In this document: one piece after another, positions 33,722 to 40,824 of the stretch
Position numbering within the stretch: the first letter of the stretch is position 1
Layout: each line of letters opens with the position of its first letter
From: a virus
Direction: 5' to 3' (one strand)
Length of the DNA stretch: 64,000 nucleotides
Virus record (IMG/VR): IMGVR_UViG_3300018424_000006
Span: 155,820 to 219,819 of that record
Notes under the pieces: model-generated
What the model was told of the DNA's origin: nothing
Seen by the model: the letters and a program-made list of their open reading frames with translations, nothing else
Database searches by the model: none
Made by a program: the position numbers and the translations under genes

Positions 33722-34855
33722 TTACTCCTTAAAGTACTTTTCAGAGGCTTGTCGTGAAATCTCCATAAGTACCGCATTAACAATACCCATTATTTCAGCC
33801 GACAAAACGATACGATCCATGACGGATCGCCAACCAAAGATCATATCTATACTATCACCTTCTAGAGTCTCGTTGGTACCAGTAAGGATGCCGCCAAACA
33901 CAGTTTTTAACTGACTTGCCAAAACACCCTTATCCCCAATACCTACCCCTAGGTCTTGATCGATAAATATTTCAATTGCTACTTGACCCGGCTCCACTTT
34001 GTTGCCGGATACATAAACATTTTTATCTACATAACCACTAGTGGCCATGCCGCTACTCGTCGCTTTAACGTGTTGTGCGCGACGGCGGTCTCCCGCTTCT
34101 ACAATCTTCTTAACTGACTCAGACATGTTCTCTTTCTTAGAGCGATAAAGAACTTGTATGTCGGATACCTTACCCACAATTTTAGCTTTAGGGGCATGGT
34201 TAGAAAACTTACTTAACGCAGCTAATGCTTGTTCGTCAATAGAGTCTAAAGAAACACTACCGTCTTGGATAATACATAAAGGACTATCTAGATCAGTCTC
34301 GTCCCCAATCTTGACCATATTTAGAACATGGTCATCTTCATCAACAACAATAACTTTGCGTTTAGTATAAGCAGAACCTAGTTTCTCAGCTAAAGCAGCA
34401 CTAATCAAAGAACTATCTTCTAAGGTTCCATTACCTTCCATGAAAGCAACATTGGCAATCGCCCCAACCTTAAATGTAACGTTCTTTGGATTTAACCAAT
34501 CACGTTCGAAGTAGTCCTTGTTCCATGCAACGATATCGCCTTCTTTAACTTTGTCTCCAACTTTAAAGTCGGTAATAATTTCCTGAGGAATAGTTAAACC
34601 GCCTTGGATACCATGGTTAGTCCCAATCTTAACACCGGATGTTGAACCGTCTTTATTTTTGATGTAGACATATTCGTCAGTAATCTTTTCAATTACCCCA
34701 TCCATCTTAGCAGTATATGCAAACTCATCTGCTGTACGCGCACCAATCACCTGTTCATAACCAGTACGAAGAGGCATGGATTGATAACCCTTAGCATGAA
34801 CCATAGCAGACATCTGTACGTTCAATAAATTGGCTCTTTTTCCTGTTGGTATTAA
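33722..34855 (-). CDS. RNA polymerase beta, exon 2
   Basis: Predicted second exon (377 codons plus stop) of the beta gene whose first exon is 36376-39180. It reads LIPTGKRANLLNVQM..., continuing the HDD of exon 1 as in the bacterial HDDANRALMGANMQ motif, then PLRTGYE (bacterial ...GTGME). Further on, VAIEIFIDQDLGVGIGDKG and GDSIDMIFGW match the bacterial GDK...NKG and D-lining region. It ends before the C-terminal clamp segment. A TTG at 34825 could start a free-standing 367-residue frame, but it has no ribosome binding site and would drop conserved residues. Splicing gives a 1,312-residue protein. Confidence 0.82.
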   Translation of the reverse strand, partial: LIPTGKRANLLNVQMSAMVHAKGYQSMPLRTGYEQVIGARTADEFAYTAKMDGVIEKITDEYVYIKNKDGSTSGVKIGTNHGIQGGLTIPQEIITDFKVGDKVKEGDIVAWNKDYFERDWLNPKNVTFKVGAIANVAFMEGNGTLEDSSLISAALAEKLGSAYTKRKVIVVDEDDHVLNMVKIGDETDLDSPLCIIQDGSVSLDSIDEQALAALSKFSNHAPKAKIVGKVSDIQVLYRSKKENMSESVKKIVEAGDRRRAQHVKATSSGMATSGYVDKNVYVSGNKVEPGQVAIEIFIDQDLGVGIGDKGVLASQLKTVFGGILTGTNETLEGDSIDMIFGWRSVMDRIVLSAEIMGIVNAVLMEISRQASEKYFKE

Positions 34856-36375
34856 CTAGGTGTCGTTAGTACCTAGCCAGCAGTAATCTGCTGCTGCATG
34901 TCGCCATGCAGACTAGACCATATCTTCACCTCCAGCTTTACCTGCTGAGGTGCTCTCCGTTTCGAGTCCACTTGGACCCTACACCGTGATAAGCGGTTGG
35001 TCGTTGAACCTTGATCTTAGTCTTTCTAGACCTTAGACCCTTGGCTGCTGATTGTCTCTCACTTTACTTTTTCAAACATTCACGCTCACCGTTTCCAGTC
35101 ACGTTGTAGTAGTAAGCTTCTGAGTAGACCGGGTATGCAATTTATTAAAAATACCCGGCCCAGTTAAGCCATAACAACTTAACAGTTTCCAGCAATTAGA
35201 AGAGATTCTGACTAATCATTTCTGAATTAGCAGGACAGAATCAGTTTTAATTTCTTTGTAAATATCAGAATAGTTGTAGAACTTAAAGCCCTTCTTACGA
35301 GTTTTACCGGGACATTTGTTTATCCAGTAAGACATGGTTGTTTTACCAACCTCGAAGCTTCTAGCCGCATCAGCTAGTCTGATATAAATCCTCTCTTCAC
35401 CAGTCTCATCATTCTTGCAATAGATAGCACTATAGCCAGAACTCTTTTCGTAGTTAAGAACTGGATCATCCACAGTCTCCCATGGAGTTCCATCATCCAT
35501 CTTCAGCAAGTACAGGTTACCTTTAACAGCGAAGACTTCGAATGGATTATTTTTAATCCTAGTTGTAATGTTACTTTCCGGTAAGTCAATGGCACGTGCC
35601 GCTTCCCGGAAAGAACCATAACGCTCTATAGACCCCTTACAGTAGTCTTTTACCAGTATGGGTATCGATCTACCATAATTCTGCATTTCAAGCCGTAGTG
35701 CTTCATTAGAGGCCTTTTTCCATGGCGTTGTCGAAGTCCCGGACTTGTATAGCTTCCCTTCAGGAAAGATTTTCTGTCCGTCGCTACCTATGCGCTTCAG
35801 TAACTCGCCGCTACTCAATCCAAGTGTCTCCATTGCAATGGAGCGAAGAGGAAACTCTTCTATTTCTCCAGTGAATGGATCATAACTTATTAGAGGTGAG
35901 CGTGTACGCTTAAGTCCTGTGTCGACTGAATGTCTTACGTTCTCTTTAGCTGTACACCATTCAAGATTCTCTGCCGAATTGTCCTTAGGTAAACCATTTT
36001 TATGATTTACTTGTAAAGACTCCTTATTTGGAGTTTCTGGATAAAAGGCGGCTGCTGCTAATCGATGAAGAGCTACATGTACCTTCTTTCCGCTATCGTC
36101 AATAAAGCGGGTAGTAATGTAGCCTCTATCGTTAGGACTGACTTCCAGTAGACGACCGGTTTCTTTTACCTTAAATCTACCTTTGGCATTTACGCAATAA
36201 CGGCTAAAGTTAGGGATTTCGAAGAAGGTCTCGTCGCCCTCAACTGGTTTTGGATTAAAAATATTTCTCATTGTAATATACCTAATACTGATACATACAA
36301 TAAGATGACCTAAAATACTAACTGTACAAATTATAGATTAGGTCGCCAAAGAAATTATGAAACTAATTTTAGTTT
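34856..36375 (-). ncRNA. Group I intron in the RNA polymerase beta gene
   Basis: All four group I core elements are readable on the minus strand: P, AATTGCTGGAAACT (35184-35197); Q, ACAATCAGCAGCCAAG (35039-35054); R, GTTCAACGACC (34999-35009); S, AAGATATGGTCT (34915-34926). The exon end GATGAT pairs with the internal guide GTCATC (36304-36309), ending in the required U-G pair, and CTAAAAT/ATTTTAG extends this helix. The last intron base is G (34856), and the first bases of exon 2 (TTAA) pair with TTAG beside the guide, giving P10. Joining after GAT keeps the frame. The 1,520-base intron carries a homing endonuclease between P1 and P3. Confidence 0.88.
35216..36271 (-). CDS. Intron-encoded HNH homing endonuclease (NUMOD4-HNH)
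   Basis: 351 residues. A NUMOD4-type segment opens the protein (FFEIPNFSRYCVNAKGRFK, about 16-34), followed by an HNH nuclease (LQVNHKNGLPKDNSAENLEW, about 85-104, then CTAKENVRHS). The C-terminal part has two NUMOD1-like helix-turn-helix repeats (FREAARAIDLPESNITTRI about 220-238 and LADAARSFEVGKTTMSYWI about 302-320) that would contact target DNA. It lies inside the group I intron and should cut intronless alleles of the beta gene to spread the intron. Start context is weak (TAGGTATATTACA), as is usual for intron ORFs. Confidence 0.92.
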   Translation of the reverse strand: MRNIFNPKPVEGDETFFEIPNFSRYCVNAKGRFKVKETGRLLEVSPNDRGYITTRFIDDSGKKVHVALHRLAAAAFYPETPNKESLQVNHKNGLPKDNSAENLEWCTAKENVRHSVDTGLKRTRSPLISYDPFTGEIEEFPLRSIAMETLGLSSGELLKRIGSDGQKIFPEGKLYKSGTSTTPWKKASNEALRLEMQNYGRSIPILVKDYCKGSIERYGSFREAARAIDLPESNITTRIKNNPFEVFAVKGNLYLLKMDDGTPWETVDDPVLNYEKSSGYSAIYCKNDETGEERIYIRLADAARSFEVGKTTMSYWINKCPGKTRKKGFKFYNYSDIYKEIKTDSVLLIQK

Positions 36376-39180
36376 ATCATCGTGGTTAGTGCCCGGCATT
36401 AATAGGCCAGTGGTGGATAGCACACTACTAGAACCTTGTCCTTCTTTATAACGACTACTCACACCACGAACAGTGTCAATATTAGCGTTAGGAGAAAGAA
36501 TAGAACGAATACCTACTTTAGCACTATCTGGCGTACCTTCTGAGATAAGACCTAAGTCATTCTTATGGAAGATACGAGAACGCTTAACAAGAGTCTCTGC
36601 TGAACGACCACCCGCACCACCTAGGTTAACAGTTTCCTGTTCCTTTAAGCTGCTGATTGGATTCAGAGAACTTGCAGGAATAGTTGTTTGGTCGTTCTGG
36701 ATATCACCCATTACTGCCATTGGATTTACATCAATAGTAGCTGTCTTAGTAAACTGATTGTTCCTATGGCCACGCACACCTTCAACAAGTCTACGATACA
36801 AGGTACCAGAGAAACGCTCAATGCCACGGATACGCATGAACTCAGGATCAGTCTCATCAGGATGACGGTCGTCTTGAAGTAACTCAACCGCATAAAGCAA
36901 TAGCTCTTTATAGACAGTTGGTTGGTCTTTAGACTTTAGGATTTCTTCAGTGATTGGATCAATGAACATATCTTCCAAAAGTTCTAATTCATTTAAGTGG
37001 TAGTTACTACCGCCTAGGAATGTCATTAGAGGACCATAGCCTTCTTTACGGTTTAGCTGATCCATACGCAAAGTATGAATGGCTTTTCGTACAGGACGGA
37101 AGCCAGCATAAAGCATTGAGATCTCAGAGCGGCTAGCGTCGATAATAACCGTTTCGTCTTTAAACTTAACAGCAATTTCGTTGGCTTCAATAGGCTCACG
37201 AGAACCAGTGGCGACTATTCGGTAATTTACTTTGAGATACTTAAGTAGTTTCTCAAAACCTAGCAGATAAGAAAGAACCATAACAATAGGTACTTGCTTA
37301 TTGAAGACAGACATTACAATATGGTCACGAGGAGCAGTTCCTGCTTCAGGTAGAATGAAAGACTCTAGACGACCTTTAGACTCTGAATTACCCTTAGAAT
37401 GAAGAGTCAGTGCATTGTCCATATTGATAGTTAAGAACTCACCAGAGGAATTAGTAGCACAAACGACTACGCCATCTTTCTCTAGTTTCTTAAGTACGTC
37501 TTTACCGTACAATTCTTCACGTTTATCATAAGCAAAGTTGAATACAAACTTATTCGAAGTAAAGCCTTCTAACTTACTACCAATTGAGGAATAAGCTAGA
37601 GGTACCTTAGCTTCGATCTTCGTCATGTCGCCATAGCGAAGAGCCGTGATTGCTTTATTAGAAACGTCTAGACCAGCAGCATTGATATGCTTTAATAGCC
37701 AACGACCATAGTTATCTACAGCTTTAGGGGAACGCTTAATAAACGTCTTACCATAATAACTAGTCAGAGCAACCTTATCTGGTCCACTCTTACGAATTGG
37801 CATATCTACACGCTGAGAGTCAAACGTGTATTTAACACCACCCTTAAAGAAACGACCTTGGTCATCTAGTTTGGGGATTTGGAATTTAATAGTAGAACTC
37901 TTACCGGTAATAGGTTGAACTTTCACCGTGTATTCTAGCTGAGAATCCAGAGCATCTACAATCTCTTCCATCTGAACGTCGCGAACAATAACACCGGCAT
38001 CCTTAAGTTTAAGGAACATGTTATTTATATCACGGAACATGATGTTGTCCTGATAGTGCTTATCGAAATTACTTACTGAACTTTCCTTAATGGTAGGATC
38101 AATAATCTTATCGATAGCAGTAGGGATAGTACGAGAAACTACAGTCTCTTTAAATTCCACTTTAGAGGCTTCGCCGATAGGCTTACCAGTAATCGGGTCA
38201 GGAATAGATTCCGTAGCTTTGGCAAGTTCTATAATCTTAGCTTGCTCACGAGAAGACAATTGTCCTTCAGAACCTAGCTCAGAAACCATTTTAAGGATCT
38301 TAGGGCTAACCGCACCGTCAGCAGCCTGTTCAGTTTCTTTCTCAACTTCTAACGCAGCTGTCTCTACAAGACTCTTCTGCTCAACAAACTTCTCAAGTAC
38401 TTGATAGAAATGTTTCTGTCTAGTCTCTACTGAATCTTTATCGTCTTCATTAAAGCGGAATTGCAGAGCAGGAATCACGCTAACAAAACCAGCACCCATG
38501 AAAACAAAGTTAAGTTGCTTTAGCTGTTCCTCAGAAAGAGTAGAAAGACTACCTTTCCCTTCAATGAACAACCATAGGTCACGAAGTCCTAATGCTTCAA
38601 ATGTATGCCACTTAGTCGCATGCGTATTACTTAGCTCCTCAGTGATCATTTTAAAATCAGCAAAAGCAGGCAATACGTTTGGAAGACGATACAAAGAAAA
38701 CGTCTCACGTTCTTCCGTGGTAATCTTAATGCCCTTCAAGAACATATCGTTAATGTTACTCCATTCATAGTACGGAGTAAGGATATGGTCAGAGTAGTCG
38801 ATACCATGAGTTAGGAAACTATAATCATAAACAACTAAGTTACGACGACTATCTAAAGCTTTACCGATGTCGCGAGCACGACGTACACGTCCTTGACTAC
38901 GGAAGTAGACGGATTCCATCTTCTTGTAGTTTTGCTTCTTGCGGATGGCCTTACCTTTGGTAATTGGTAATTCAGTTTCATGAAAGACACGAACGTCTTT
39001 AGGGAAATTAACAATCATTGGATGGGAGCCCCGAATACCTAGTTCAGGACTGTCCATATCGATATAGTGCAAAGCAGAGTCTAAAGGTAGCTGGAAGTCT
39101 TTAGCTGGATGAACCTTAAGTAGGTTCAAGGCTTTGCCCGGAAGTATAGAAAACTTCTTTAAAAAGGGAGCATAAAGCAT
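36376..39180 (-). CDS. RNA polymerase beta, exon 1
   Basis: 935 codons from ATG at 39180 (AAGAAGGCAAG upstream). The C-terminal part carries beta signatures: AGGRSAETLVKRSRIF, then HKNDLGLISEGTPDSAKVGI, equivalent to the bacterial H...G..CPIETPEGPNIGL, and GLLMPGTNHDD, which ends exactly at the intron. Without splicing, translation would add KLKLVS and stop at 36355. Neighbouring virion and protease genes suggest the virion RNA polymerase of phiKZ type (gp178 position), which transcribes early genes after injection. An assignment to the non-virion enzyme is less likely but not excluded. Confidence 0.85.
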
Positions 39181-39207: not shown

Positions 39208-40824
39208 TTATTTGAAGTTCTTGAGTACCCAAGAGCTTACGTCGGTGGTTGTGTCATACATCAAACCACCAGAAGCCTGTAGGTACATTTCCTTCCCGTT
39301 TAAAATCTTACGCATTTCTTTAACAGATTCGTCCGAGTAGACTAAAGTCAAGGAGACAGTATCTCCATCGAAATCAGCTCCCAGAGGCTTAAGCATAGCG
39401 CTATGCGGAATCGTCGTATCAACGAAACTCTGTGAACCTTTATCTGCGTCTGGCATCTCAGGGAATACGCTTCCACTTGAAGTCCAGTCGTCAGCCAATT
39501 CAGTTAAAGAGATAGCAGGGTTGGTAGATTTACAATATAGCTTAGTAGGATAGATCGAACCTAAGCCAGTAACAGGATAGCGAGTAACGAAACCATACAC
39601 ACGGTCGCTAACAGAGTGCGCAGCATAATAAAATAACTCCGCCCAAGTCAATGGATAAACATTCTCTTTCTCTAGGTGAGGAGGAAGCTCTTCCATATTC
39701 TTAAAGATACGAAAAGACTTCTCATCTTTATAGATAAGAGCTAGAAAATGACCATCAACCATAACAGGCTTGTGTCTACGTTCAAGTAGATCAAAACCAT
39801 TCATGGTATCGTTAAGGCCATCTATAGTTGTCCATTTGTCCCGAGTCTTTTGTTTTAATTTTACAGGAACTAATTTAAGTGTTTTAGGATCGATTAAAGG
39901 AACCTCTCCATCTGGGTTACTGACAATATCAACTAACAAAGTTGTATTCAGCTTATGCTGAATCAAAGGAGAACAACCTTTAATAAACTGATGGATACCA
40001 ACTTGAGTTGTATTGATATCGGCAAGACGTGGACTATCCATGTCCTCTGCTGTCATGTCCATGGCACTGATAACATTCCGTGTACTACCAAATACCCGAC
40101 GTGCAGCCCACTTGCCTTGTATGAACCCTGATTTACCTGAGATCATATTCTCAAGGTATGCGTAAACTTCCAGTACTGCTCGTTGTACTTTCCATCGAGT
40201 CAAGTCTAGATCTGCAGTTTCCTTATTCTGCATTACAGGACTGATTGTTGCAGCTGAAGTTAGAACGGAGCGATAAAGTTTACTTAACTCGTGTTCGATT
40301 GGACGGCCACCTTCTGTCATCTCGATATCTCGAAGACCGGCAGGTAGGACAACCAATTTATCCATTAGAGCAACCTTACGATATTTCTCTATTAGATCGA
40401 TATTAAGATCACGTCGCTTTGATTCGTTCCGTGCAAACTTAATATCATTAAAATGTTTAACGAAGAAATGGAATCCAGTATCTCCGTCTAGTGCATCACT
40501 TCGAACAAAGTCTTTTAACTTCTTATCGAAGATTGCATATCCTTTACCTTCAAGAATATCTTTATAAAGACCTTTCAATCTAAAGATTTCCATAAGTAGT
40601 TTAGGATGAAAAACGGTTGTATTCAGTTTGATGAGTGCGTGTTGTTGATTACGCTTTTGTTCGCCAGCCAAACCGAATATAAGAGTGGAGTATAAACCTG
40701 CTGGATGATACTCTCCGCTGGACGTATCCCAAATGTCCGATGCAGTGATCTCAGCTAGATGACCTACCTTCTGTTTGGTTGGTTCAAGTATAGAGATATT
40801 AAAGGGTAGGCGCTTCTGTTGCAT
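39208..40824 (-). CDS. RNA polymerase beta-prime, N-terminal half
   Basis: 538 residues with GTGGAG before the ATG. Near the C-terminus, LGADFDGDTVSLTL (about 479-492) is the catalytic NADFDGD motif whose Asp residues bind the two metal ions. The protein ends about 50 residues later, so the remaining half (bridge helix, trigger loop) must be a separate gene outside this window, as in phiKZ relatives where beta-prime is split. It lies 27 bases upstream of the beta exon 1, so the two are co-transcribed. Position fits phiKZ gp180 of the virion enzyme. Confidence 0.88.
   Translation of the reverse strand: MQQKRLPFNISILEPTKQKVGHLAEITASDIWDTSSGEYHPAGLYSTLIFGLAGEQKRNQQHALIKLNTTVFHPKLLMEIFRLKGLYKDILEGKGYAIFDKKLKDFVRSDALDGDTGFHFFVKHFNDIKFARNESKRRDLNIDLIEKYRKVALMDKLVVLPAGLRDIEMTEGGRPIEHELSKLYRSVLTSAATISPVMQNKETADLDLTRWKVQRAVLEVYAYLENMISGKSGFIQGKWAARRVFGSTRNVISAMDMTAEDMDSPRLADINTTQVGIHQFIKGCSPLIQHKLNTTLLVDIVSNPDGEVPLIDPKTLKLVPVKLKQKTRDKWTTIDGLNDTMNGFDLLERRHKPVMVDGHFLALIYKDEKSFRIFKNMEELPPHLEKENVYPLTWAELFYYAAHSVSDRVYGFVTRYPVTGLGSIYPTKLYCKSTNPAISLTELADDWTSSGSVFPEMPDADKGSQSFVDTTIPHSAMLKPLGADFDGDTVSLTLVYSDESVKEMRKILNGKEMYLQASGGLMYDTTTDVSSWVLKNFK

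Follow-up and report, generated by a model that had tools for sequence, protein, structure and literature searches.

The interrupted beta gene

The window analysed here is a stretch of 64,000 nucleotides, bases 155820-219819 of the 219,819-base IMG/VR virus record IMGVR_UViG_3300018424_000006. Its minus strand carries a gene for the beta subunit of a virion RNA polymerase in two parts. Exon 1 (36376-39180) encodes 935 residues, ending in NHDD, and matches columns 398-1050 of the beta family PHROG 3148 (E 1.7e-235); by tblastn, its similarity reaches 294 phage records. Exon 2 (33722-34843) encodes the C-terminal part, starting with GKRANLLNVQ (or with LIPT at 34855, if spliced as the first-pass annotation proposed), and matches columns 1052-1421. 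The two parts fit consecutive stretches of one family, so that both flanks belong to one beta gene, as had been claimed. In the alignments with sm033, FLC9 and Yong MS32, exon 2 abuts exon 1 at zero gap, with the junction at 34843. The neighbouring gene on the same strand (39208-40824; phrog_2986, E 3.1e-181) encodes the N-terminal beta' subunit of the phiKZ gp180 family and is intact at ADFDGD. The order of the beta' and beta genes matches that of PhiPA3 212/211.

Between the exons lies a group I intron. Its catalytic core matches positions 1-253 of RF00028 at 35259-34894 on the minus strand, with 82.8 bits (E 1.5e-19; gathering score 50), and is the sole Rfam hit in the whole window; a group I core on this strand is thereby confirmed. 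Upon inspection, P7 is present with its G-binding G-C pair (GACCA at 35002-34998 with UGGUC at 34920-34916). The relatives have GACUA/UAGUC here, which amounts to a compensatory change from U-A to C-G. Placed by homology, on the basis of the core and of 65 intronless loci, the intron would extend over 1,532 nt (34844-36375, minus strand), from the 5' end AAACTAAAATTAG to a predicted 3' end in CCAACA.

Upstream of the core, the intron contains an open reading frame of 351 amino acids (35216-36271, minus strand) for an HNH homing endonuclease (Pfam HNH_3, E 1.1e-10; phrog_59 HNH endonuclease, E 3.7e-35), the last codons of which overlap the guide and the 5' strand of P2. The protein is 27.6% identical to PhiPA3 gp210 (94% coverage, E 9e-25), and its residues 25-159 match the structure of I-HmuI (PDB 1u3e, E 2.6e-6). 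I-HmuI, a phage SPO1-type homing endonuclease, is likewise an HNH nuclease, but it has another target gene and the similarity is only remote. Two hairpins on the minus strand (approximately 36264-36344) precede and overlap the start of the reading frame, covering its ribosome-binding site and AUG. The fold of 36390-36262 has a free energy of -27.4 kcal/mol (z -2.78), and one of 200 shuffles was equally stable. Comparable hairpins precede the reading frame in the introns of PhiPA3, Haymo, Kodama and phiKp_32, which suggests that they may control the translation of the endonuclease.

The sequence thus strongly supports a group I intron with an HNH homing endonuclease that splits the virion RNA polymerase beta gene of a jumbo phage after HDD. 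This was the main claim of the first-pass annotation, and it is borne out by Rfam, HNH_3, phrog_59 and PHROG 3148; the letters quoted there for exon ends, guide and P10 are all found where it had placed them.

The 5' splice site and the internal guide

The 5' splice point had been put after GAT (36376/36375), which is also its place in all 20 homologous introns found at exactly this site. These comparators are 18 non-redundant introns together with those of EL and FishSpeaker; phiKp_32, CF8, BONAISHI and locus L140 were excluded, as their insertion points are displaced downstream by 3 to 11 nt. In all 20, exon 1 ends in GAT and the last intron base is a G before the x codon of DD-x-KR.

A GUC is found in the homologous introns immediately before P2, after the reading frame where one exists. 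The first intron nucleotide pairs with the base before this GUC in 17 of 17 introns, including the one in the window (shuffle p 0.004). Furthermore, the pair covaries: it is U-A, U-G or C-G in the others and A-U in the window. A terminal U-G pair between exon 1 and the guide (by homology, U36376 with G35236) is common to the same number of introns (17/17). Given the conserved GUC and the covarying pair, the guide in the window is GUCC (35236-35233), which falls within the final codons of the endonuclease gene. Together with the preceding U (35233-35237, minus strand), it would form the pairs U35237-A36375, G35236-U36376, U35235-A36377 and C35234-G36378. It is a weak point of this best explanation that the homologous guide pairs with only three exon bases and one intron base.

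A different guide, GTCATC at 36304-36309, had been proposed at first, with P1 extended by a 7-bp inverted repeat. Pairing of equal length arises in 43% of dinucleotide shuffles when G-U pairs are allowed and in 2.5% when they are not, and an extension of this kind arises in 42%. Since GTCATC is not significant against shuffles and folds in, between or beside the hairpins before the reading frame, it was rejected as the conserved guide. It is probably misplaced, and belongs to or adjoins these hairpins.

The 3' splice site

Exact splice sites had been predicted at both ends of the intron. The 5' site stands, but the 3' site (34856/34855) conflicts with every intronless relative. In each of the 65 intronless loci, DD (in two of them ED or DE) and [K/R]R are separated by a single residue. 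The homologous junction is HDD|GKR, before GGAAAAAGA (34843), and the base that precedes it is A34844. The site first proposed lies 12 nt upstream, which shortens the intron to 1,520 nt and places LIPT within the otherwise invariant DD-x-[K/R]R spacing, and is doubtful for that reason.

A guanosine at the 3' end is the rule among group I introns, and it is present in 20 of the 20 comparators. With A34844 instead of G, the second splicing step is left unexplained, and this base is abnormal given that the G-C pair of P7 which normally binds G (35002-34916) has been kept. A sequencing error at A34844 was rejected, since the same 7.86 kb is found without a difference in two other IMG/VR contigs. 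A literature search for exceptions to the terminal guanosine returned general papers only. On these comparisons, the homologous junction HDD|GKR seems somewhat more likely than one at G34856. Tentatively, and with a little less than even confidence, it is proposed that splicing takes place at HDD|GKR and that the intron ends in an adenosine where a guanosine is conserved, the G-binding pair of P7 being kept. If true, this intron would stand as a natural exception to a rule that is among the firmest for group I introns.

It could also be, with an appreciable but minority probability, that the first-pass annotation was exact, in which case the intron ends at G34856 and mature beta carries the four residues LIPT between DD and GKR. 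On this reading, the 3' site would have slipped upstream by 12 nt once the ancestral terminal G had been lost. The intron would then end in the standard G, as do the 20 comparators, and the frame remains open across TTAATACCAACA; joining 36376 to 34855 is indeed in frame and gives 1,312 residues, as had been stated. The one-residue spacing in all of the intronless loci, however, is violated. Moreover, comparison with the homologous introns places G34856 at the very end of the terminal hairpin stem, where it is paired; in the homologous introns, a linker of 11-13 nt comes after this stem. As for P10, TTAA can pair with TTAG beside the guide first proposed, but this needs a guide other than the conserved one; if the conserved guide is used, it is GGAA in the homologous exon 2 that can pair, with UUCU and again over four bases. 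Since either junction allows a P10 of four pairs, P10 does not discriminate and was discarded as evidence for the 3' end. The two junctions predict distinct products, GATGAT-GGAAAA for HDD|GKR and GATGAT-TTAATACC for the upstream site.

Both the terminal G and the one-residue spacing would be restored if in-frame splicing used G34843 or G34842 and the 5' cut fell one or two bases further on, the product being HDDRKR or HDDKKR. This is improbable: the exon would end in A, against the U of the U-G pair in all homologous introns at the site, and R or K at position x is absent from the intronless loci surveyed. Splicing still further downstream, after CTAAAAT and before CCAATTTA, preserves the spacing as well as the U and G ends; it was rejected because the near-invariant KR becomes LK.

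Two separate unspliced proteins starting at 39180 and 34825, with a dead intron or a polymerase assembled from pieces, are very improbable, for although natural splits are known in some polymerase subunits of jumbo phages (PMC7598289) and the intron has an abnormal 3' end, its core and endonuclease are intact, as are the two exons, the split coincides exactly with a known intron site, a start at 34825 would lose the near-invariant KR, and the record of 201phi2-1 joins gp273/274 as one product, which was identified by mass spectrometry.

Known occupants of the site

The first-pass annotation had implied that the insertion was novel, with an intron known only from phiKZ and in a different gene. 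However, the site has already been published for PhiPA3 gp211/gp210/gp209 (PMC11620839), and the GenBank record of 201phi2-1 already joins gp273/274 across a mobile element. As inserts are found at this position in PhiPA3, 201phi2-1, Kodama, Haymo, EL and FishSpeaker, the site is known, and the intron in the window is, by sequence, a new occupant of divergent lineage.

The closest parallel in the literature is PhiPA3, whose gp210 intron interrupts the beta gene of the virion RNA polymerase immediately behind the same Asp-Asp; gp210 nicks the empty site in vitro (Birkholz 2024, PMC11620839). As in the window, the insertion follows DD at the same codon boundary, with exon 1 ending in HDD and the same gene order; gp210 is flanked by gp211 and gp209, which are the two parts of beta. 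Both introns have a group I core (67.8 bits in PhiPA3) and related internal HNH endonucleases. They differ in length and in their ends, since the PhiPA3 intron measures 1,352 nt and ends in G before ATGAAACGC, while homology predicts 1,532 nt for that of the window, with A at this point. Nicking has been proven for gp210, and may be supposed for the window endonuclease.

The 201phi2-1 intron occupies the same site, with a core of 87.4 bits, and its exons are joined in GenBank as one beta gene; unlike that of the window, it is only 336 nt long and without an endonuclease reading frame. In the Serratia phages Haymo and Kodama, an insert directly after DD of beta ends in G and has an HNH reading frame. 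Pseudomonas phage EL and Shewanella phage FishSpeaker also have an insert directly after DD that ends in G, but of about 340-420 nt and with no annotated reading frame.

Other inserts are shifted 3-11 nt downstream of the DD site (L007, L171, L011 and L140). Those of phiKp_32 and CF8 follow the KR codons, that of BONAISHI follows HDDG and that of L140 lies within PKRI, so that several neighbouring insertion points are used in the DD motif.

Distribution and proposed mobility

The survey comprised 91 loci, with a few duplicate records among them, from an IMG/VR profile scan with exon 2 and from fetched phage records. The site is empty in 65 loci, and 26 have an insert at the site or at most 11 nt from it. 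On a tree of 86 rows, of which 22 are occupied, the label requires 18 changes, at least 15 of them forced by well-supported branches. Occupied loci cluster no more than shuffled labels do (97 of 500 as low). This pattern fits frequent gain and loss of the intron, and the DD site is a recurrent hot-spot with patchy occupation, in about a quarter of the sampled lineages.

Two near-identical IMG/VR contigs differ in occupation, L129 being occupied and L130 empty. Their flanks are 99.4% and 100% identical; of the 22 differences, six lie in the 109 nt directly before the insertion (p 3e-5), and the 6,116 nt that follow it have none. Such a pattern is as expected of one-sided co-conversion in a recent homing event, and we infer that this natural pair of an occupied and an empty locus bears the footprint of homing. 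For the phage of the window itself, no close intronless relative was found; the two matching IMG/VR contigs are the identical ones mentioned above.

The core, the reading frame, the one gene in two parts, the shared site and the patchy distribution support this interpretation at the level of sequence: very probably, the hot-spot directly after the two aspartates of virion RNA polymerase beta is here the seat of a mobile group I intron like that of PhiPA3 gp210, which would splice itself out and spread by homing. It can be envisaged that the beta gene is transcribed and that the RNA folds as a group I ribozyme, in which the GAU at the exon end pairs with the guide GUC just before P2. The intron would then splice itself out after GAU, joining exon 1 (ending in HDD) to exon 2 (starting with GKR, or with LIPTGKR if the upstream 3' end is used), and intact beta would be translated from the spliced RNA. 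The HNH enzyme, made from the intron, would nick the empty allele of a co-infecting phage, and repair would copy the intron across. The window would thereby add a divergent lineage to a known battleground, in which intron endonucleases attack the virion polymerase gene of a rival jumbo phage in co-infection. For annotation, the beta genes of such phages are to be joined across the intron, with caution at the 3' end.

Other introns and inserts

Outside the window, the same record contains a second group I intron (about 147743-148939; locus L004), with a core at 147794-148126 (74.3 bits) and an HNH reading frame of its own. It lies between NAD and FDGD of the catalytic motif of beta', which is the position of the phiKZ gp180/gp179 intron, and ends in G. 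As in the beta introns, its guide, the six bases GUCUGC, stands after the reading frame and just before P2. The phiKZ intron resembles that of the window in having a related core (74.9% over 200 nt), an endonuclease reading frame and a target in a polymerase active site that ends in GAT, but it is located in beta', inside an NADFDGD-type motif (GAD|FDGD).

In a peripheral domain of the window intron, 35 bases (35110-35076) recur without change in the intron of Shewanella phage FishSpeaker that lies beside its nuclear shell gene (L002), and the same bases are more than 90% identical to Enterococcus phage DNA. This suggests that a peripheral element may have been exchanged between introns. No nuclear shell protein was found in the record with the FishSpeaker protein as query, which is perhaps too distant, the record being moreover a fragment.

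In the Vibrio phages pir03 and Yong MS32, the first part of the beta gene is interrupted by a different insert, about 1.5 kb long (L008 3866-5415 and L009 3863-5353), at residue 459/460 of exon 1 of the window. It contains a reading frame of 1,089 nt, and Rfam gave no hit there. Yong MS32 also has a group I core (L009 1834-2240) after a reading frame and just upstream of the beta gene, presumably in the beta' gene.
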